In this document: in pieces, positions 12 through 10,172 of the stretch | Layout: each line of letters starts with the position of its first letter | How positions within the stretch are numbered: the stretch's first letter is position 1 | Source of the DNA: a virus | Length of the DNA stretch: 38,755 nt | IMG/VR virus record: IMGVR_UViG_3300020215_000096 | Location: 1-38,755 of that record | Strand: one strand, 5' to 3' | Position numbers and translations under genes: made by a program | Notes under the pieces: model-generated | Told to the model about the DNA's origin: nothing | Database searches by the model: none | What the model saw: the letters and a program-made list of their open reading frames with translations, nothing else

Positions 12-120
12 GGGGCCCGTAGCGGCCCCCCTGTGCTAACCCGCCCCCCGGCGGGAGGTCGGCGACGCCCGAGAACATCGGGTAGAACGGGTACGGCACA
101 CGCTGAACGTACGCTCAGCG
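12..120. terminator. Group of three hairpins beyond the leftward operon
   Basis: Three short inverted repeats lie downstream of the last leftward gene. They are GGGGCC/GGCCCC with a 6-base loop (12-29), CCGCC/GGCGG with a 4-base loop (41-54), and CGCTGA/TCAGCG around ACGTACGC (101-120). None has a run of T, so they are not textbook rho-independent terminators. Their position after the operon makes a transcription stop the simplest reading, but an operator role for the 101-120 dyad is possible. Confidence 0.35.
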
Positions 121-146
121 GTTCAGGCACAGCAAATTTGGCTGAC

Positions 147-3010: not shown

Positions 3011-3448
3011 TCAGCCCTCCCTGCAGCGAGGACACGAGACCTCGCTCCGGTCCCAGGTCGCCTCGAAGTCGGCGCCCGCTTGCCGCGGGTCCAAGCCGCA
3101 CATCGTCCGGTAGAGGAGGGGGTGCGAGAGATGGACTAGGCGGACGTCCTCTGCCGGCTTCGGCGAGAGCTTCTGTTCGAGCTCCCGCACATACGCGAGC
3201 AAGCGGGGGATGTCCTCGCGAGCGTGCGCGATGAACTCGCGGTCCGCCCGCCACGGCGGATACACGCCGGAGTCGGTCTCGATCACGACAGCCCGACACA
3301 GGCGTGCGAAGCCGTCGTACACGAACGCGCTGCGCTGGTCGCCGGGGAGGACGAAGCCCGCCAACATCTGGTCCTCGACCCAATCCCACGGGCCCGGCGA
3401 GGCCACGCTCGCTCGCGCCGCGATCGCTGCAAGCTCTGCCGGCGACAT
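3011..3448 (-). CDS. Ea22-like early phage protein (145 aa)
   Basis: The N-terminus (MSPAELAAIAARASVASPGPW) and the middle segment REFIAHAREDIPRLLAYVRELE match a well-known phage/actinobacterial pattern: 'L..I.AR...A.PGPW ... FIA.AR.DVP.LLA.VR.LE'. Proteins with it are often annotated Ea22-like and have no proven activity. A C-terminal CPRC adds a possible half zinc site. The ATG at 3448-3446 fits the conserved N-terminus. The gene is first in a run of eight closely spaced leftward genes and lies just below the palindrome at 3494-3509. Confidence 0.75.
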   Translation of the reverse strand: MSPAELAAIAARASVASPGPWDWVEDQMLAGFVLPGDQRSAFVYDGFARLCRAVVIETDSGVYPPWRADREFIAHAREDIPRLLAYVRELEQKLSPKPAEDVRLVHLSHPLLYRTMCGLDPRQAGADFEATWDRSEVSCPRCREG

Positions 3449-3493
3449 CCGGAGTAGTCTCTGCGCCGCATCGGACGGAGGTCAACCCAACGC

Positions 3494-3509
3494 CTGAACT
3501 TTGGTTCAG
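3494..3509. promoter_or_regulatory. Palindromic operator CTGAAC-TTTG-GTTCAG
   Basis: A perfect 6-base dyad with a 4-base centre lies between the 27-aa leader gene and the Ea22-like gene. On the minus strand it reads CTGAACCAAAGTTCAG. Its first 14 bases differ at only one position from CTGAACCAAGGTTC at 8002-8015 in the other control region. This points to a site for one shared repressor. A TTGACC hexamer follows on the minus strand (complement of 3480-3485), so a second weak leftward promoter here is possible. Confidence 0.55.
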
Positions 3510-3519
3510 CGCATCGGTG

Positions 3520-3603
3520 CTAGCGCGGGCAGACCGCGCTACAGATATGCCGCGCCTCGCCCTCCGCCTCGAGCGCGACAACCTCGGGGTCAAACGGGCG
3601 CAT
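3520..3603 (-). CDS. Small leader peptide gene (27 aa)
   Basis: ATG 3603-3601 is preceded by a near-perfect SD (GGGGAGG, with six to nine bases to the ATG) and lies about 67 bases downstream of the predicted start of the leftward transcript. The peptide begins MRPFDPEVVALEAEGEA and ends HICSAVCPR. A longer frame opening at GTG 3684 would begin upstream of the predicted transcript start, so the short form is preferred. It may be a true small protein or a translated leader that controls the genes below. No homolog is recognised. Confidence 0.4.
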   Translation of the reverse strand: MRPFDPEVVALEAEGEARHICSAVCPR

Positions 3604-3676
3604 GTCTTCTACCTCCCCGCCGCCAAGACGCCGGCGCATCTCTCCGAACCACCGTGGGATCCGGGTGCCCCGCAGT

Positions 3677-3705
3677 ATTATCACAGGCCCAACGGCGCCT
3701 CTCGA
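3677..3705 (-). promoter_or_regulatory. Leftward early promoter
   Basis: On the minus strand, TCGAGA (-35, complement of 3700-3705), a 17-base spacer and GATAAT (-10, complement of 3677-3682) are in sigma-70 register. An extended TG lies before the -10. The -10 matches the consensus at five of six positions and the -35 at four of six. Transcription would start near 3670 and read through the 27-aa leader into the leftward operon. Exact start and strength are inferred. Confidence 0.5.
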
Positions 3706-3787
3706 GCTGCGCTCGCGCCGACTGCTGCGCCCTCGGAGGGGGAGGATTGCAGAGCTGCACTCTATGCTGGGCGAGTCCGTACGGAGT

Positions 3788-3810
3788 CGCGCGCGCGCGC
3801 GCGCGTACGT
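3788..3810. repeat. Alternating CG tract
   Basis: Bases 3788-3805 are an uninterrupted run of CG dinucleotides followed by TACGT, giving 23 bases of alternating purine and pyrimidine. Such tracts favour Z-DNA under negative supercoiling. It lies upstream of the leftward promoter. A structural role is inference. Confidence 0.6.
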
Positions 3811-3970
3811 CTTCGAGGGTGTCCCCCCGGGATCCGGGTCTGTTCAGTGCCTGCGCCTCGTCCTGTTCAGCCCCGCCAAGTGCCTGGAACCACAGCGTCT
3901 TGACATAATCGCCGTTCTCAGACCTTGAGGCCGGATGCCCCGTAGTCCTTAGCGTGGCGCCGCTTCGGAT

Positions 3971-3995
3971 GCCCTACTCGGGGGCCGAGTAGGGC
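3971..3995. terminator. Perfect 11-bp hairpin in the control region
   Basis: GCCCTACTCGG (3971-3981) pairs perfectly with CCGAGTAGGGC (3985-3995) around a GGG loop. The stem is very stable on either strand. There is no T run. It stands between the divergent operons, so it could insulate them from each other or serve as a protein or RNA structure site. Confidence 0.5.
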
Positions 3996-4208
3996 TGAGG
4001 CAAGAGCCCCGTTGCGCCCTTCCCCCCGCGCGGGTTGCTCGACCGATGCGCAGCGATCGAGCGATGCGTGCGCCGCGGTAGTTCGTCGGCTCGGCGAGCA
4101 CGCTCGCCTTGCCTTGCCTTGGCGGGGAGCTGAGCTCGGTGCGGCGCAGGGGAGGGCTACGCCGCAGAACGCTCGCTCCGCTCGCTCCAAGACGCCTCCC
4201 CTCCGTAG

Positions 4209-4235
4209 GTCCCCCTCCTGCCGGTAGAGGGGGAC
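4209..4235. other. 9-bp hairpin in the control region
   Basis: GTCCCCCTC (4209-4217) is perfectly complementary to GAGGGGGAC (4227-4235), with a 9-base loop. It would form in a rightward or leftward leader transcript. Another dyad, GGCGAG-CACG-CTCGCC (4093-4108), lies nearby. Function is unknown. Confidence 0.45.
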
Positions 4236-4426
4236 GAGGTCCTGGCGTACGACGTGCGCGCTCTGTGTCTCGACGGAGCCCGTGTGCTGTGCGGCGCGGG
4301 CTCCTCCCGACGTCGCCTCGGTGTGGCGACAGCCCGGTCCTGCGTCGAGTCCCCTCGACCGTGCCACAGCTCGCCCGTCGGCCGCAAAATCCCACCTGCT
4401 CGCCAGAGCAGCGCTGAACGTCCGCT

Positions 4427-4540
4427 TGTCTCGCAGAGACACAGGTGCCGCTGTCGCACCTGTCGCATCCAGCGACAAGTCGCATCGTGCGACACTTTTC
4501 AGTGTCTCGCTAGTCGCACCTGAACAAGCAATTTCGCACA
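4427..4540. promoter_or_regulatory. Cluster of palindromic operator-like sites before the rightward operon
   Basis: Four dyads are packed within about 80 bases: TGTCTC-GCA-GAGACA (4427-4441), TGTCGC-ATCCA-GCGACA (4461-4477), GTCGCA-TCG-TGCGAC (4479-4493) and GACACT-TTTC-AGTGTC (4491-4506). The hexamer TCGCAC/T recurs six times in 4454-4540 on both strands. The same half-sites recur near 7903-7982. Overlapping dyads ahead of an operon suggest repressor binding; an iteron role in replication is the alternative. No convincing -35/-10 pair could be fixed here. Confidence 0.55.
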
Positions 4541-4650
4541 CTTGCGCTTGGCCAACCGCGTGCACATGGTTGCCGCGTCCGACGATGCGGCGCCGACCGG
4601 AGCGGCAACTCCGGCCAGCGCCTAACCACCGACCGAAGGAGACTCGACCG

Positions 4651-5181
4651 ATGGCTACCTCTTCACTCTCATCCCGTAAGCGTCTGAGCAAGGCTGACCG
4701 CGAGCTCGCGCTGTTCGCATCCGCCGTCCAGGCGGAACTCGTCAGCCTGCTTACGGACGCCGACCTACCGGTCGTCCTCGACTCGCGGAACCTCGAGCAG
4801 CCGTACATTCGGCGCCTCATCGCCGAGTTCCGCGCGCTCGAGTGCTCGCCCCGAGACACCGCGGAGCGGATCGTCCAGGACGTCCAGACGCGCTACGCCT
4901 ACCGCATCAGCGGAGACATCATCGTCGACCACCCGGAGCGCAGAGACGCGTCCTACAGGCCTGTCCCGGCCGGCTCGATCTCGCCGCTGCCGCACTACAC
5001 GTTCTCCGTGCGCTCGTACGCTGAGACCGCGCTCCGCCGCATAATGGCGGGCGAGGGCGACTTCTCGAGCGAGTACGTCGGTCGCCTCCGTCTCGAGCGC
5101 CAGGACTGGCGCACGGGCCTTTGGACCACGCTCACCGAGAAGCGCCGCGACGGCCGCACCGCGCAGTGGAAGGCGGTGTAG
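4651..5181 (+). CDS. Early protein, unknown (176 aa)
   Basis: This is the first gene of the rightward operon. ATG 4651 follows a strong SD (GAAGGAGA, 4635-4642). The frame is open further upstream, but that part has shadow-like composition, so the start with the SD is chosen. The protein begins MATSSLSSRKRLSKADRELA. It has a helical N-terminal half (to about residue 85) and a C-terminal half with strands and many aromatic residues (YRPVPAGSISPLPHYTFSVR). No known family is recognised. First position in an early operon suggests a host-takeover or regulatory role. Confidence 0.75.
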   Translation: MATSSLSSRKRLSKADRELALFASAVQAELVSLLTDADLPVVLDSRNLEQPYIRRLIAEFRALECSPRDTAERIVQDVQTRYAYRISGDIIVDHPERRDASYRPVPAGSISPLPHYTFSVRSYAETALRRIMAGEGDFSSEYVGRLRLERQDWRTGLWTTLTEKRRDGRTAQWKAV

Positions 5182-5183
5182 CC

Positions 5184-5459
5184 ATGGCAACCCCCGAAGA
5201 CCTCAACCGCGAAAACGAGGCCCACATGCACGCCACGCAGATGAAGACGAAGAGGACGATGACGGTGAAGGAGGCTCTGGCGGAGCGCGCTCGCGGTGCC
5301 GCGTTCTGGCGCAGCCTCGACAAGGCGAGCCAGCACGAACTCGGCGACCAACTCGTCCTCGGGTGCGTCGATTACCTCGGGTGGTTCGAGCGGCGGCCCT
5401 CGGCGGCGTTCCTGAACGGCCTCGACGAGGCCCGGATTCTCTCGGAGATGGAGGAGTAG
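5184..5459 (+). CDS. Small helical protein (91 aa), unknown
   Basis: It begins at ATG 5184, two bases after the preceding stop, with GGAAGG upstream. The N-terminus is charged (LNRENEAHMHATQMKTKR). The rest reads as alpha helices with conserved-looking aromatic residues (AAFWRSLDKASQHELGDQLVLGCVDYLGWFERR). It ends in an acidic tail (ILSEMEE). The next gene begins three bases after its stop. The family is not recognised. Length and spacing fit a true early gene in a polycistronic unit. Confidence 0.7.
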   Translation: MATPEDLNRENEAHMHATQMKTKRTMTVKEALAERARGAAFWRSLDKASQHELGDQLVLGCVDYLGWFERRPSAAFLNGLDEARILSEMEE

Positions 5460-5462
5460 ACC

Positions 5463-5678
5463 ATGATCAGCGCAGAGAAGCTCGCAGAGCGCCTGGATGG
5501 CGCGCGGTTTGTCCGGTTCGACGCCGACAGCGGCACCGTGTTCGCCTGGAAGGGCGGGCGCACGATCAACCTCTACAGCCTCGCCGGGGGCGAGGACGTG
5601 GCCTCGATGGACTACGGCGAGGAGCCGACCCTGGAGCGCGCTCAGGCGTGCATCGAGCGGCTGCGGACGGACTACTAG
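5463..5678 (+). CDS. Small beta-rich protein (71 aa), unknown
   Basis: ATG 5463 follows the stop of the previous gene by three bases, and that gene's end (GGAGATGGAGGAG) supplies the SD. The protein starts with a helix (ISAEKLAERLDG). It then shows a strand pattern (ARFVRFDADSGTVFAWKGGRTINLYSL) and ends in a second helix (LERAQACIERLRTDY). This looks like a compact alpha/beta fold. No known domain is recognised. It is co-transcribed with its neighbours. Confidence 0.7.
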   Translation: MISAEKLAERLDGARFVRFDADSGTVFAWKGGRTINLYSLAGGEDVASMDYGEEPTLERAQACIERLRTDY

Positions 5679-5687
5679 GAGCATCGG

Positions 5688-5927
5688 ATGAACGGCAACG
5701 GCAACAACGGCAACGACATCCTGGCCCTGATCGAGCTCGGGAAGGTGATCGCCAGCGACGTGAGGACGATCGACACGCGGCTCGCCGCGCTCGCGACCAT
5801 CGTCGAGGCCGGCTTCTCGCGGGTGACCAGCCACCTCGACATCGCGGCCAAGCGGTCGGAGAACCTCGAGGCGCGCGTGATGACACTCGAGGCCCAGGTC
5901 GCGGAACTGATGAAGCGGCTCGCGTAA
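5688..5927 (+). CDS. Coiled-coil small protein (79 aa)
   Basis: It starts at ATG 5688 with a GGAG eight bases upstream. After a short Asn/Gly-rich leader (MNGNGNNGNDI) nearly the whole protein is helical with heptad spacing (IASDVRTIDTRLAALATI, SENLEARVMTLEAQVAELMK). A self-associating coiled coil is the likely fold. Similar short phage coiled coils are of unknown use. A stable hairpin follows the stop codon. Confidence 0.7.
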   Translation: MNGNGNNGNDILALIELGKVIASDVRTIDTRLAALATIVEAGFSRVTSHLDIAAKRSENLEARVMTLEAQVAELMKRLA

Positions 5928-5946
5928 GCGCGCTCCCCGTTCGCTC

Positions 5947-5972
5947 GGGCTCGCAAGGCGACTTGCGGGCCC
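5947..5972 (+). terminator. 11-bp hairpin with a GCGA tetraloop
   Basis: GGGCTCGCAAG pairs with CTTGCGGGCCC (one G-U pair in RNA) around GCGA, a GNRA-type tetraloop that stabilises RNA. It lies 20 bases after the coiled-coil gene and before the next start, in an 82-base gap. A second GC-rich dyad (GGGGC/GCCCC, about 5976-5991) follows. With no T run it may be an attenuator or an RNase-stop structure rather than a terminator. Confidence 0.5.
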
Positions 5973-6009
5973 TGTGGGGCCGGGGAGCCCCGGAAAGCAG
6001 GACGAGACC

Positions 6010-6231
6010 ATGGCGAACACGACGACGACGACGACGAAGACCCGACCGACCGGCGATGACGCGCTCTACCTCCACCGACGCGCGCGCTACGTGCTGTGCA
6101 AGTATGCGGACCCGACCGAAGGCGCGCGGATCGGGCTCACTGAGGACGAGGCCCGGGAGATCATGCGCGAGGACCCGAGCCTCATCTTCGCCGCGCCCGA
6201 GGCCGAAGCGCGGGCTTGGTTCGAGGCTTAG
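6010..6231 (+). CDS. Small hypothetical protein (73 aa)
   Basis: ATG 6010 opens a frame that starts with a run of Thr (ANTTTTTTKTRPT) encoded by ACG repeats. The rest is an alpha-helical body with RRARYVLCKY and an acidic stretch (LTEDEAREIMREDPS). A possible upstream ATG at 5974 lies inside the hairpin region and is less likely. The following gene begins eight bases after its stop. No family is recognised. Confidence 0.65.
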   Translation: MANTTTTTTKTRPTGDDALYLHRRARYVLCKYADPTEGARIGLTEDEAREIMREDPSLIFAAPEAEARAWFEA

Positions 6232-6239
6232 GCGGCGAG

Positions 6240-6605
6240 GTGGCGAACCACCGCTCACCGGATCCGGCGAAGACGAGGCGCGTCGTGCTCTATGCGTCGC
6301 GCCCCGCCTTCGAGGCCATCCGGCAGTACGCGCGGAAAAGAGGTGTGGCGATGGGCACGGCCGCCGCCGAGTTGCTGGACCGCGCGTGCGGCATCGAGCA
6401 GCGAGAGGGCGCTGAGCCGCCGATTACACCCGATCGCCCGACGTGGGCGATCGTCCCGCGCGGCACCGAGGATACGAAGGCGGCCGGCATCCAGCCCAAC
6501 GCCTTCCCCTCGCGGGAGAGGGCGCGGCTCGCGATCGAGGTCCTGTGCGAGCAGGACCCCGGTTTCTACGGCGAGCCCGACGAGTGGGAGATCGTCGGGC
6601 TCTAG
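6240..6605 (+). CDS. Ribbon-helix-helix-like protein (121 aa)
   Basis: GTG 6240 is chosen as the start because the preceding gene ends at 6231 and a GGCGGCGAGG lies just upstream. Residues about 13-48 (RRVVLYASRPAFEAIRQYAR, then GVAMGTAAAELLDRA) have the beta-alpha-alpha pattern of RHH (CopG/Arc-like) DNA-binding proteins. The C-terminal part (WAIVPRGTEDTKAAGIQPNAF..., to WEIVGL) is a separate small alpha/beta module. The DNA target is unknown. It could act on the shared palindromes of this phage, like the second RHH protein at 8031-8252. Confidence 0.65.
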   Translation: MANHRSPDPAKTRRVVLYASRPAFEAIRQYARKRGVAMGTAAAELLDRACGIEQREGAEPPITPDRPTWAIVPRGTEDTKAAGIQPNAFPSRERARLAIEVLCEQDPGFYGEPDEWEIVGL

Positions 6606-6808
6606 CACAGCACGGAGCACCCAGGGCAGAGTCCGACCGCTCGATCGAGCACGCGATCCGACCCGAGCCGCAGGGGCACATCAGGTCGGTGGTCCCGCGA
6701 GATGCCTGCCCGTCTCGCGGCCCCATTGAAGTGACGATTCCGCCTGGTCGAGCAGCGACGGCGCTCCGCCTCACGGCGCGAGCGCCGTTCGCGTCTTAAC
6801 GCTCGTGG

Positions 6809-6814
6809 TACAGT
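6809..6814 (+). promoter_or_regulatory. Possible -10 element for a leaderless transcript
   Basis: TACAGT (TAnnnT type) stands six bases before ATG 6821, the spacing seen in leaderless genes of high-G+C bacteria. No SD precedes that ATG. No good -35 is visible. The 215-base gap before it contains the 12-base palindrome GCTCGATCGAGC near 6635-6646 but no gene that I can support. Confidence 0.3.
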
Positions 6815-6820
6815 CTCGGG

Positions 6821-7159
6821 ATGACCGACGCGAAGACCGAAGCGCAGGCCCTCCAAGAGCGGGAGGTAAACTGGACGCTCAACCAACTCGAGAAGCTCCT
6901 CGGCGCGATGCGAGCGCGGCAGGCCGCACACGCGTCCACAACAGCAGAGGACCAAGCCGACCTCGTGGCCGCGCTACACCTCGGCGCCGCCCTCGGCACG
7001 CTGCGCGCGTTCGCTGCGCTCATGCCGGCCCACCACGCCATCATCGAGGATGTCGCATCCTCGGTCGCGCGACACCGCATCAAGCGGGTCACGGAGCGCG
7101 CGATCGAGACGCCAGATGGCAAGGCGTTGATCGTCCCCGGGCGCGGCTCATCCGCCTGA
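6821..7159 (+). CDS. Helical hypothetical protein (112 aa)
   Basis: ATG 6821 is preceded by a 215-base gap and a possible -10, so this gene may have its own promoter. The protein is almost entirely helical: charged N-terminus (TDAKTEAQALQEREVNWTLN), an Ala/Leu/His-rich middle (LVAALHLGAALGTLRAFAAL) and a basic C-terminal third. The middle is amphipathic rather than clearly membrane-spanning. No family is recognised. Confidence 0.65.
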   Translation: MTDAKTEAQALQEREVNWTLNQLEKLLGAMRARQAAHASTTAEDQADLVAALHLGAALGTLRAFAALMPAHHAIIEDVASSVARHRIKRVTERAIETPDGKALIVPGRGSSA

Positions 7160-7160
7160 C

Positions 7161-7394
7161 GTGGCCGCGATCGACGTAGACGACGACGTGCAATACGGCC
7201 TGCGCTGCACTGGACCCGAGGTGCTCGCGCTGCTCGCCGCGATCACGCGGGGCGCCGACGAACTCGGAGCCGACGTAGCTGCTCGCCTCGTTGCGGTGCG
7301 ATCTCGCCTCCCGGCGCCGTCCGATGTCGAGGCTGCGATTCGTGCCGCTCGCTCGAGGCGAGAACAGACGGAGCTCCGGCGGAAGCGTCGCTAA
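7161..7394 (+). CDS. Small hypothetical protein (77 aa)
   Basis: It starts at GTG 7161, one base after the preceding stop. An acidic leader (AAIDVDDDV) precedes helices, and the C-terminus is strongly basic (AARSRREQTELRRKRR), suggesting contact with nucleic acid. Its TAA (7392-7394) overlaps the stop codon of the oppositely oriented lipoprotein gene, so transcription units converge here. The 5-base dyad AGCGT/ACGCT across the junction is weak. The family is unknown. Confidence 0.65.
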   Translation: MAAIDVDDDVQYGLRCTGPEVLALLAAITRGADELGADVAARLVAVRSRLPAPSDVEAAIRAARSRREQTELRRKRR

Positions 7395-7798
7395 CGCTGC
7401 TTGCGCACGTAGTCGAGATCGTACGTCGACACGCACGACGCCCCGCCTCGATTGTGGGCCGCCACAGTGGCCACACCCGACAACCTCGACGCGCCCGCGT
7501 CCTCCTGCGTTGTCGCAACACTGATATCGACGATCTCTTCCTCTGTCTCGCAGCGAGAGAGCGTCGTGATCGTGCAACCATCCGCGGAGATCCGCTGATC
7601 TACCGCCCGACACGGGCCCGCAGCAGGCCCTCCGCCCAGCATTACGACGCCCCTCCCGATCTCGGGGCAGGAGCCGGACACCTTCTTGGCGGTGAGATCG
7701 TAGGTCCCGCGGCGCTTTTCGATATCGCAAACGAAGTCGCCTCCACCGCACCCGGCGAGAGCGGCGATCCAGCAGAGCACGCACAAGCGGGACAGCAT
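7391..7798 (-). CDS. Secreted lipoprotein, candidate moron (135 aa)
   Basis: From ATG 7798-7796 the protein reads MLSRLCVLCWIAALAGC: basic n-region, hydrophobic core and a perfect lipobox LAGC with Cys at residue 17. It would be lipidated and anchored in the cell envelope. The mature part (about 118 aa) has several further Cys (for example GSCPEIG, GPCRAV, GCTITT, SRCETE) that could form disulfides. An alternative GTG start at 7822 adds eight residues. It is a single minus-strand gene among plus-strand early genes, typical of a moron expressed from a prophage. Phage lipoproteins of this size often block superinfection. That role is inferred. Confidence 0.75.
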   Translation of the reverse strand: MLSRLCVLCWIAALAGCGGGDFVCDIEKRRGTYDLTAKKVSGSCPEIGRGVVMLGGGPAAGPCRAVDQRISADGCTITTLSRCETEEEIVDISVATTQEDAGASRLSGVATVAAHNRGGASCVSTYDLDYVRKQR

Positions 7799-7901
7799 GC
7801 CCCCGGGATCGCCTAATTCCACCCTGAGTTCAAGGCCTTACAAAAAAGCCGAAAAAAGTAGTGGAAGGGGGTTGCGTTGTCTAAGGGACTTTAGTAGAAC
7901 C

Positions 7902-8024
7902 CGTCTCACGGTGAGACGAGCTGAGACACAAACGTCGGTGCTCGGGGATGAGCGGTGTAGCGGGCTGCGACAGGCTGTCGCACGCAGAGATAGTAGAGAC
8001 ACTGAACCAAGGTTCTCATAGAAC
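7902..8024 (+). promoter_or_regulatory. Second palindrome-rich control region with a rightward promoter
   Basis: CGTCTCAC-G-GTGAGACG (7902-7918) and TGCGACAG-G-CTGTCGCA (7966-7982) are perfect dyads with one central base. CTGAACCAAGGTTC (8002-8015) contains GAACC-AA-GGTTC. A plausible promoter has -35 GAGACA (7996-8001), a 17-base spacer that is exactly the third palindrome, and -10 TAGAAC (8019-8024), ending six bases before ATG 8031. An operator in the spacer is a classic repression layout. All three half-site types recur in 3494-4540. Confidence 0.55.
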
Positions 8025-8030
8025 TTTTCA

Positions 8031-8252
8031 ATGGTAGGGTACATAAATCGGCTCGTGAGAAAGCGTGCCATTGGTCGTCGGCCTATGGGCCGCCCACCCA
8101 AGCCACCGCACGAGCAGCAGAACGTTCAGGTTCAGGTCTACGTGCGAGCCGACGCTGCCGACATCCTCCTGCGCAAAGCCGAAGAGGAGCAGCGCAGCGT
8201 GAGCGATGTTGTCCGCGAGCTCATCTACCGAGAGCTGAAGATCGCGTCCTGA
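8031..8252 (+). CDS. Ribbon-helix-helix regulator with GRPP motif (73 aa)
   Basis: Residues about 35-70 (VQVQVYVRADAADILLRKAE, then SVSDVVRELIYREL) match the RHH fold: one DNA-reading strand and two helices. The basic stretch GRRPMGRPPKPP before it resembles an AT-hook-like arm. No start has a clear SD. ATG 8031 is taken because the proposed -10 lies six bases upstream (leaderless); ATG 8085, giving a 55-aa protein that starts MGRPPK, is the alternative. Its promoter overlaps a palindrome that also occurs before the leftward operon, so it may repress itself and that operon. Dimerisation is expected for the family. Confidence 0.7.
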   Translation: MVGYINRLVRKRAIGRRPMGRPPKPPHEQQNVQVQVYVRADAADILLRKAEEEQRSVSDVVRELIYRELKIAS

Positions 8253-8288
8253 ACAGACGCGCAGCGTGGCTGGGCGGGAGGAGTACAA

Positions 8289-8630
8289 GTGCCGACTTTT
8301 CTGAGGGAAGTCACAAAACAGCATGCCCCGGATCGTCGGCTGGGCACTCACACCGACTTGACGCTTCGGTTATGGAAGCGACCCGTGTCCCTACGGGGAG
8401 AACATGCCGGGCAACACGACATAACGTCTCTCATCAGACGCGTTCGTTGCCAATATTGGAAGCAACGTACCAAAGTCCGGGCTCGGCCGCAAATTTTTTC
8501 CCGCCTCAGCACCAGAGGGCTTCCCAAGGTTTCTTCCCTGGCTGCGGCCAATAATTCGTCCGAATTCTCTCATGGCCTGCAGGCGTGGGAGAGGGCGCCA
8601 ATTTCGCGACAACCTCCGGAGGTGGACTAA
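8289..8630 (+). CDS. Atypical basic protein, possibly a decayed maturase-like fragment (113 aa)
   Basis: GTG 8289 follows a strong SD (GGGAGGAG, 8277-8284), and the TAA ends one base before the next gene's GTG, as expected for a coupled gene. Codon use differs clearly from the neighbours: many codons end in A or T, while the surroundings prefer G or C. The protein is very basic. LIRRVRCQYWKQ resembles the 'LRRRLR..YWKQW' segment of group II intron maturase domains, but the rest aligns poorly and the reverse transcriptase part is absent. It could be a true recent acquisition, a remnant, or chance coding. Confidence 0.4.
   Translation: MPTFLREVTKQHAPDRRLGTHTDLTLRLWKRPVSLRGEHAGQHDITSLIRRVRCQYWKQRTKVRARPQIFSRLSTRGLPKVSSLAAANNSSEFSHGLQAWERAPISRQPPEVD
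8387..8467. repeat. Hairpins and a 14-base repeat in the atypical segment
   Basis: GTCCCTACGGGGAG (8387-8400) is repeated exactly at 23436-23449, where it overlaps the stop of a late zinc-ribbon gene. Both copies can form TCCC-TAC-GGGGA. CGTCT/AGACG (8425-8440) and CGTTGC/GCAACG around the perfect palindrome CCAATATTGG (8445-8467) follow. Their density in a lower-G+C stretch suggests a mobile or regulatory remnant. Confidence 0.4.
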
Positions 8631-8631
8631 C

Positions 8632-9154: not shown

Positions 9155-9564
9155 AGCGGGCCATGAAGAAGGCGCCCCGGCAGCCGACGCTGCGCAGCCA
9201 GAAGAAGGCGCCCCGGCAGCCGACGCTGCGCAGCCAGAAGAAGGCGCCCCGGCAGCCGACGCTGCGCAGCCAGCGGCCGGCGCCGGCGCCGGCGCCCCTG
9301 GACGCGGAGACGCTTCCGGCCGGGCAGCGACGGGTGCTCGAGACGCTCGTGCAACTCCGGCGACAGTCCGGCGGTGTGACGCCGTCGATGCGCGAGATCG
9401 CGGCGGCGCTCGGGCTCAAGAGCCCGCACGGCATCAAGAGCCACCTCGACGCACTGGAGCGGAAGGGCTTCTTACGCCGGCGCCCACATCTCGCGCGGTA
9501 CATCGAGCTTCTCTGGGCAGCGCCCGACGCACCCACGCTCTCCGACGAGGAGATCCCGTGGTAG
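9151..9564 (+). CDS. LexA-like winged-helix protein with a repeated basic tail (137 aa)
   Basis: It starts at GTG 9151, overlapping the preceding TGA. Residues about 4-42 contain three exact copies of the 12-residue unit KKAPRQPTLRSQ, then a Pro/Ala linker. Residues about 58-115 (RRVLETLVQLRRQSGGVTPS, MREIAAALGLKSPHGIKSHL, DALERKGFLRRRP) match the DNA-binding domain of LexA, with helix-turn-helix and wing. No LexA protease domain is present, so it is a DNA-binding-only regulator. The Lys/Arg repeats may add non-specific DNA binding. It lies next to the resolvase and replication genes, so it may control or assist replication. Confidence 0.75.
   Translation: MKRAMKKAPRQPTLRSQKKAPRQPTLRSQKKAPRQPTLRSQRPAPAPAPLDAETLPAGQRRVLETLVQLRRQSGGVTPSMREIAAALGLKSPHGIKSHLDALERKGFLRRRPHLARYIELLWAAPDAPTLSDEEIPW
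9166..9273 (+). repeat. Three exact 36-bp tandem repeats
   Basis: Units at 9166-9201, 9202-9237 and 9238-9273 are identical base for base and in frame, each coding for KKAPRQPTLRSQ. Each includes a small dyad GCAGC-CGAC-GCTGC. Perfect identity points to recent expansion or selection on DNA sequence. The number of units may vary between relatives. Confidence 0.9.
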
Positions 9565-10172
9565 CCGAGGCGAGGGTCACCGTGGCCGTCGATCCCGGCC
9601 CCGTCGAGAGCGCGTACGTCGTCTACGACGGGAACGTCATCGAGGCGGGGAGGGAGCAGAACGCCGCCGTCCTCGAGTTCGTCCGCGGGGCCGCGGCGTT
9701 CGAACCAGCGCGGCTCGTCGTTGAGAAGATCGCCTCGTACGGGATGCCCGTCGGCGAGGAGACCTTCCAGACGTGCGTCTGGACCGGGCGCCTCGTCCAG
9801 CGGTGGGCGGACGAGCGGTTCCGGGTCGGGTTCGACCCGCAGTGGCACGAGATCACGCGGCTCCGGGTGAAGCTGGCCCTCTGCCACCACCCGCACGCCA
9901 AGGACTCGAACGTGCGTCAGGCGCTCCTGGACCGCTTCGGCGGGAAGAGCAGGGCGATCGGATCAAAGAAGGCGAGGGGGCCGCTCTACGCCCTCTCCGG
10001 CGACATGTGGGCGGCCCTCGCGGTCGCGGTGGCTTGGAACGACATCAACGGGGGGGGCCTGGAGATGCTTCGTGTCAATTCGGTACCGGAAGGTCAGCCA
10101 GAAGCTCCACGCGAGTGCGAGCTTTCGCGCGCTGTCGGCGCCAAAACCCAACGCGAGAACCCTGTGGGTTGA
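9558..10172 (+). CDS. RuvC-like Holliday junction resolvase (204 aa)
   Basis: GTG 9558 overlaps the end of the winged-helix gene by seven bases. The protein shows the RNase H-like resolvase set: VAVDPGPVES with Asp12, RLVVEKIASYG with Glu56, and SGDMWAALAVAVA with Asp149 in the C-terminal acidic helix. RuvC-type enzymes cut four-way DNA junctions, resolving recombination and branched replication intermediates before packaging. The last 34 or so residues extend past the conserved core and overlap the next gene out of frame by 101 bases. Next to the replication and recombination genes this role fits well. The overall fold assignment is firm; substrate detail is inferred. Confidence 0.8.
   Translation: MVAEARVTVAVDPGPVESAYVVYDGNVIEAGREQNAAVLEFVRGAAAFEPARLVVEKIASYGMPVGEETFQTCVWTGRLVQRWADERFRVGFDPQWHEITRLRVKLALCHHPHAKDSNVRQALLDRFGGKSRAIGSKKARGPLYALSGDMWAALAVAVAWNDINGGGLEMLRVNSVPEGQPEAPRECELSRAVGAKTQRENPVG

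Follow-up and report, generated by a model that had tools for sequence, protein, structure and literature searches.

The question raised by this locus is why two control regions of a phage carry nearly the same short inverted repeat, and which protein might read both copies. The record analyzed, IMGVR_UViG_3300020215_000096, is a single linear viral sequence of 38,755 bases (~69% G+C) from an unclassified phage, and is referred to here in its entirety as the window. Two 14-base elements within it, termed site 1 and site 2, each hold the dyad GAAC-N4-GTTC and lie ahead of genes that point in opposite directions. As a tentative answer, we consider it possible that both sites are operators of a single phage regulator and that their reader is the phage's own LexA-domain-only protein, encoded at 9163-9564. 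The features on which this answer turns are the following.

3509-3496, minus strand: site 1 14-mer, CTGAACCAAAGTTC, upstream of the leftward gene block.
3494-3509, minus strand: site 1 as a full unit, the 16-base dyad CTGAAC-TTTG-GTTCAG.
8002-8015, plus strand: site 2 14-mer, CTGAACCAAGGTTC, before a small ribbon-helix-helix (RHH)-like gene.
3011-3448, minus strand: gene at the head of the leftward block (145 residues; matches phrog_1667, function unknown).
8031-8252, plus strand: borderline RHH/Arc-like protein (73 residues).
9163-9564, plus strand: LexA DNA-binding-domain homologue (133 residues; PF01726, 61.6 bits, cut-off 23.7), the foremost candidate for reading the sites.
9561-10172, plus strand: Holliday junction resolvase (phrog_1770), whose gene immediately follows the LexA-like one.

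Both 14-mers were found at the coordinates and on the strands given to them in a first-pass annotation of this DNA, and the GAAC...GTTC dyad described there is present in each, in the form GAAC-N4-GTTC. A count of the 14-mer pattern over the whole genome, which that annotation had proposed as a check, returned exactly two matches to CTGAACCAARGTTC (sites 1 and 2), both noncoding; the reversed control pattern had none. When up to three mismatches to the 14-mer were allowed, four matches were obtained vs. 2.17 expected, one of the four being the opposite strand of site 1, and 21 of 100 shuffles reached at least four. The dyad itself likewise occurs in the record only at sites 1 and 2; the numbers of half-sites predict ~1 copy (202 x 196 / 38755). 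Site 1 is the better palindrome of the two; at site 2, the dyad reads GAACC-AA-GGTTC (8004-8015) and is overlapped by GTTCT-CAT-AGAAC (8012-8024). Each site lies near a start codon: the ATG at 3448 (minus strand) is separated from the site 1 14-mer by 47 bases, and the one at 8031 (plus strand) from site 2 by 15.

Chance occurrence was assessed with dinucleotide shuffles of five noncoding segments, delimited by hand and amounting to ~2.1 kb (3449-4650, 5928-6009, 6606-6820, 7799-8030, and 8253-8631). GAAC-N4-GTTC was seen twice in these segments against 0.03 expected, and none of 2000 shuffles had two. Pairs of 14-mers taken from different segments and differing by at most one mismatch numbered four (shuffle mean, 1.25), and two of the four have a dyad in both copies, namely sites 1 and 2 and a G+C-rich pair at 3707 and 6774. 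As an unplanned by-product of these tests, the half-site CTGAAC was found to rank first among 1053 noncoding hexamers, with seven copies vs. 0.94 expected, three of the seven lying inside the two sites. With four segments added, one of which (1-147) was picked after a site had been noticed there at 103-126, the count was nine vs. 1.13 expected, with a family-wise probability of 0.004 (500 shuffles). The site at 103-126 is possibly a third one of the same kind.

103-126, minus strand: noncoding CTGAAC/GTTCAG half-sites at the left end (CTGAACGTACGCTCAGCGGTTCAG), with the dyad CTGAGCGTACGTTCAG, one base off GAAC-N4-GTTC.

The enrichment of CTGAAC is a stronger sign of a shared signal than the dyad and pair tests. 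We regard such a signal as probable, short of proof. Because the two sites have a common dyad architecture, lie near starts, and have no other copies in the record, and because CTGAAC is enriched in control regions, it is plausible, with moderate support, that one regulator acts at both as a shared operator. To this extent the earlier proposal of one repressor at both places is supported; the RHH proteins it named are not favored over other candidates, and the protein at 9163-9564, which it did not name, is a candidate reader at least as good.

In its arrangement of bases, GAAC-N4-GTTC corresponds to the LexA (SOS) box. The box tabulated for Bacillus subtilis and Staphylococcus aureus, CGAACN4GTTCG (PMC9578287, Table 1), has the same GAAC/GTTC half-sites and 4-base spacing as both phage sites; the Gram-positive LexA consensus is quoted as CGAACRNRYGTTYC in PMC2248561, and the Myxococcus LexA box as CTRHAMRYBYGTTCAGS in PMC9705874. 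The outer CT...AG of the Myxococcus xanthus box is also present in site 1, which agrees with this Myxococcus consensus at 14 of its first 16 positions. On its reverse strand, site 2 agrees at 12 of the 16 positions (counted by hand) and was not among the matches of the scan. The sites here differ from those LexA boxes in that they precede phage genes. Chromosomal loci that encode relatives of the phage's LexA domain were then compared, these being the best 80 by E-value of a longer list, of which 57 are from Streptomyces or near kin and are therefore not independent. In the 450 bases upstream, GAAC-N4-GTTC with at most one mismatch was found at 79 of the 80 loci, vs. one of 80 downstream control stretches of equal length; chromosomal relatives of the phage's LexA domain therefore accompany this dyad. 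The exact dyad occurred at 19 of the 80 loci (450 bases upstream to 30 bases into the domain match) and twice in the remaining 443 kb. At the eight chromosomal loci that were looked at, the open frames are 222-312 codons long.

The protein encoded at 9163-9564 also matches LexA chains in the PDB (E 7.1e-6 to 8.8e-4) and phrog_3502 (51 bits, function unknown). Its LexA domain match ends at residue 112 with only 21 residues to follow, and the S24 self-cleaving peptidase domain is absent, no peptidase family appearing among its Pfam matches to E 0.1. The structure model, of moderate confidence (block pLDDT 74-84), shows helices in residues 53-119 and no wing strands. Ahead of the LexA domain, 9166-9273 holds three tandem copies of KKAPRQPTLRSQ (residues 2-37 of the protein). 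As a single query the protein had no match in viral or genome contigs, and loci were found with an alignment query: a LexA-domain alignment scan confirmed 146 viral loci, the best 80 of which were kept. By a length rule, 56 of these 80 are LexA-domain-only, 20 are longer, and four are neither; the 56 include near-duplicates. Forty-five of the 56 domain-only genes lie on loci of >60% G+C, and 39 have SPHG, SPHA/SPHS, or SPNG/SPNS in the domain.

If this protein is the reader, the core GAAC-N4-GTTC would serve as a LexA-box-like dyad bound by a winged-helix protein of the LexA type, which, having no peptidase domain, would not be released by RecA-triggered self-cleavage. The sequence itself shows the two sites, their architecture and positions, the enrichment of the half-site, and the LexA-type gene; the promoters, the identity of the binder, and the direction of control are what we infer, the last from the positions of the sites relative to three possible promoters.

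7996-8024, plus strand: possible promoter GAGACA-17-TAGAAC around site 2 (8/12 matches).
3456-3485, minus strand: possible promoter TTGACC-18-GAGACT, just downstream of site 1 (8/12 matches, weak).
3677-3705, minus strand: better promoter match for the leftward block, TCGAGA-17-GATAAT, ~170 bases upstream of site 1 (9/12 matches).

At site 2 the dyad is flanked by the putative -35 and -10 elements of the RHH-like gene, where binding would be expected to repress. The 14-mer had been said to fill this promoter's spacer exactly; it covers 14 of the 17 spacer bases (8002-8018), and the promoter match is weak, ties with another 8/12 match (GCGACA at 7967), and is absent from the list of a stricter promoter scan. 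Site 1 immediately precedes one putative -35 of the leftward block, from where binding could activate, and is downstream of the better match, at which it would repress; if the promoter at 3705-3677 is real, site 1 lies in the transcribed leader and could only hinder. Were both 8/12 matches promoters, each transcript would begin all but at its ATG. We give these putative promoters little weight, as they are weak 8- and 9-of-12 matches that conflict at site 1, to a consensus that may not be the host's.

Several results weigh against the reading that the LexA-domain-only protein acts at both sites. When all 4-base dyad classes with a spacing of 0-8 were considered, the family-wise probability for GAAC-N4-GTTC was 0.10-0.14 (600 shuffles), which is marginal, and pairs with a dyad in both copies arose at least once in 9% of 300 shuffles and at least twice, as observed, in 3%, so that the bare pair is marginal as well. 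With automatic gene calls, CTGAAC ranked third of 913 hexamers (six copies vs. 0.76 expected; family-wise 0.067, 150 shuffles), behind ACGAGG and CGTACG. The inner-base rule contained in the quoted consensus sequences (RNRY in Gram-positive bacteria, RYBY in Myxococcus) is broken at both phage sites, by T..G at site 1 and C..G at site 2. Among 136 upstream boxes with at most one mismatch at the chromosomal loci, the right-hand inner base is T or C in 132; one box has the inner pair of site 1, in its other-strand form (C..A for T..G), and none has that of site 2. Searching the window for the Myxococcus consensus (at most three mismatches) gave 19 matches vs. 17 expected. The domain-only phages were tested as support for the dyad, and the outcome was negative: GAAC-N4-GTTC was not in excess in the 56 domain-only viral loci (six in 706 kb, where 14 other spacings averaged 11.6), and CTGAAC was not enriched in the noncoding DNA of 14 representative domain-only loci in three groups (ranks 1132/1352, 297/1602, and 560/1696), one of which has an SPHG recognition helix similar to the phage's. 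Five control loci without LexA, taken as a set, gave CTGAAC a rank of 681/1817, and the domain-only groups did no better. Moreover, GIL01 gp6, a characterised truncated LexA homologue, reads GaCACAC GTGTGaC and not the LexA box, by the account in PMC6182141; the domain encoded at 9163-9564 may therefore read something else, such as CGTCTCACGGTGAGACG at 7902-7918, which by eye resembles the gp6 palindrome. Lastly, the best leftward promoter match (3705-3677, 9/12) conflicts with activation from site 1. Partly because of it, we rate as improbable an elaborate form of the proposal, in which the peptidase-less LexA homologue would be a two-way switch working through an altered LexA box, GAACCAARGTTC: it would repress the RHH-like gene from within the promoter spacer and activate the leftward block (perhaps late genes) from upstream of the -35, an SOS operator having been rewired into a damage-independent timing device.

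The frequencies just given, a dyad pair as good in 9% of shuffles and a family-wise 0.10-0.14 for the dyad class, speak for a likeness due to chance, the sites being two unrelated short dyads in control DNA. We think this doubtful, as CTGAAC is enriched in control regions, both dyads stand near start codons, and the record holds no further copies.

It is also rather unlikely, in our estimate, that the RHH-like protein at 8031-8252 autoregulates through site 2 and acts at site 1 as well. Site 2 ends just ahead of its start codon, and self-regulation is common among phage and plasmid RHH repressors. The protein's own RHH and Arc-like matches are weak; those to RHH_7 (21.1 bits, cut-off 27) and RHH_1 (19.8 bits, cut-off 20.5) are below the Pfam cut-offs, that to the Arc-like phrog_2639 has an E of 8.6e-4, and the structure model is poor and uninformative. 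Of the two proteins that the first-pass annotation had named as RHH regulators, this one is borderline; for the other, at 6240-6605, neither Pfam nor PHROGs gave an RHH match up to E 0.5. In addition, the RHH operator could instead be either of two longer perfect dyads in the same control region.

7966-7982: perfect 8+1+8 dyad TGCGACAGGCTGTCGCA, a second motif common to the 4450-4520 control stretch.
7902-7918: perfect 8+1+8 dyad CGTCTCACGGTGAGACG, ahead of the RHH-like gene.

Half-sites of these two dyads recur in 4427-4520, before the rightward genes. Five of the 12 copies of TGCGACA/TGTCGCA are noncoding, as are five of the ten copies of GAGACAC (control regions 4427-4520 and 7902-8001), and among noncoding 7-mers CGATGCG ranks first (family-wise 0.05), TGCGACA second (0.08), and GAGACAC third (0.18). 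At least two regulators may act in this control DNA, so the RHH-like protein cannot be tied to the 14-mer by its nearness alone. Two further sequences were observed: CTGCGCGTCTGTTCAG, on the minus strand at 8249-8264 across the RHH-like gene's stop codon, which is one mismatch from the Myxococcus LexA consensus, and a long perfect stem, GCCCTACTCGG-GGG-CCGAGTAGGGC, at 3971-3995 in the divergent control region.

Binding of both sites by the host's LexA, which would couple the phage promoters to DNA damage, is unlikely. The sites do have the SOS box layout, and phage GIL01 provides a precedent, being described as under the control of host LexA (PMC6182141); however, the inner bases of both sites are rare among the boxes examined, their flanks are TGAAC and not the CGAAC of the Gram-positive boxes as quoted, and site 2 agrees with only 12 of 16 Myxococcus positions. 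A Myxococcus-type host was considered on account of the high G+C content and the CTGAAC...GTTCAG flanks, and is not claimed, the consensus scan being without excess. We expect still less that another regulator, of host or phage, reads the sites: many repressor families read dyads of 12-16 bases, and the HTH_23 match of the protein at 1075-1284, for example, is above its cut-off (31.6 bits, cut-off 24.6), but no specific link to the GAAC-N4-GTTC dyad is seen.

As to the wider setting, no match was found when bases 1-25000 were compared by megablast with 50,697 phage records, and the 38,755-base record has no tRNA and no Rfam match at gathering score. The rightward block carries DNA-metabolism genes (the Holliday junction resolvase, a DnaB-like helicase, a RecE-like exonuclease, and an RNA ligase). 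One leftward gene product has 29.9% identity to a protein that two Manatee Spring phages have under the annotation phage stabilization protein. The small genes that separate sites 1 and 2 include a leftward one at 7391-7798, which has no Pfam match and whose product, with a signal peptide and a cysteine recognized by eye, is probably a small lipoprotein. Judging from the gene order of MW202622, the contig seems to end before the portal and terminase genes; among the proteins scanned, which are a part of the open reading frames, none matched portal or terminase save for weak terminase matches of the small helix-turn-helix protein at 1075-1284. Relatives of the RHH-like protein were not found in the viral contigs, phages, or plasmids searched, and those of the leftward protein not in viral contigs, with weak Gordonia phage matches only. 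The helicase and tail-protein relatives are distant (29.9-37% identity), none of the 15 records with such relatives carries a LexA domain, and no close relative of this phage was found in these searches.

Phages that encode the LexA DNA-binding domain alone, as here, are known from E. coli and Shigella (mEp460, SfV, cdtI, and others), with 34-37% identity over the domain. In mEp460, a 108-residue LexA-like gene is followed by a Holliday junction resolvase gene (the pair at 3995-4707 of the mEp460 locus), the same order as at 9163-10172, although the resolvases are named differently (phrog_1770 here, RusA family in mEp460); the 8.2-kb stretch of mEp460 examined has no GAAC-N4-GTTC. In GIL01, the truncated LexA activator gp6 together with dinBox2 and dinBox3 at the late promoter P3 is likewise a case of a phage-encoded protein that is mainly DNA-binding domain and of LexA-box-type sites at phage promoters (PMC6182141). 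There, as that article describes it, gp6 reads its own palindrome and host LexA the dinBoxes. If the truncated LexA homologue of the phage presented here does read sites 1 and 2, it would add to GIL01 gp6 another instance of the LexA fold serving as a damage-independent phage regulator, and the sites would offer a natural change in the inner box bases to study. Since LexA-domain-only genes are present in 56 of the best 80 of 146 viral loci, an operator pair defined for one such gene would be a useful test case.

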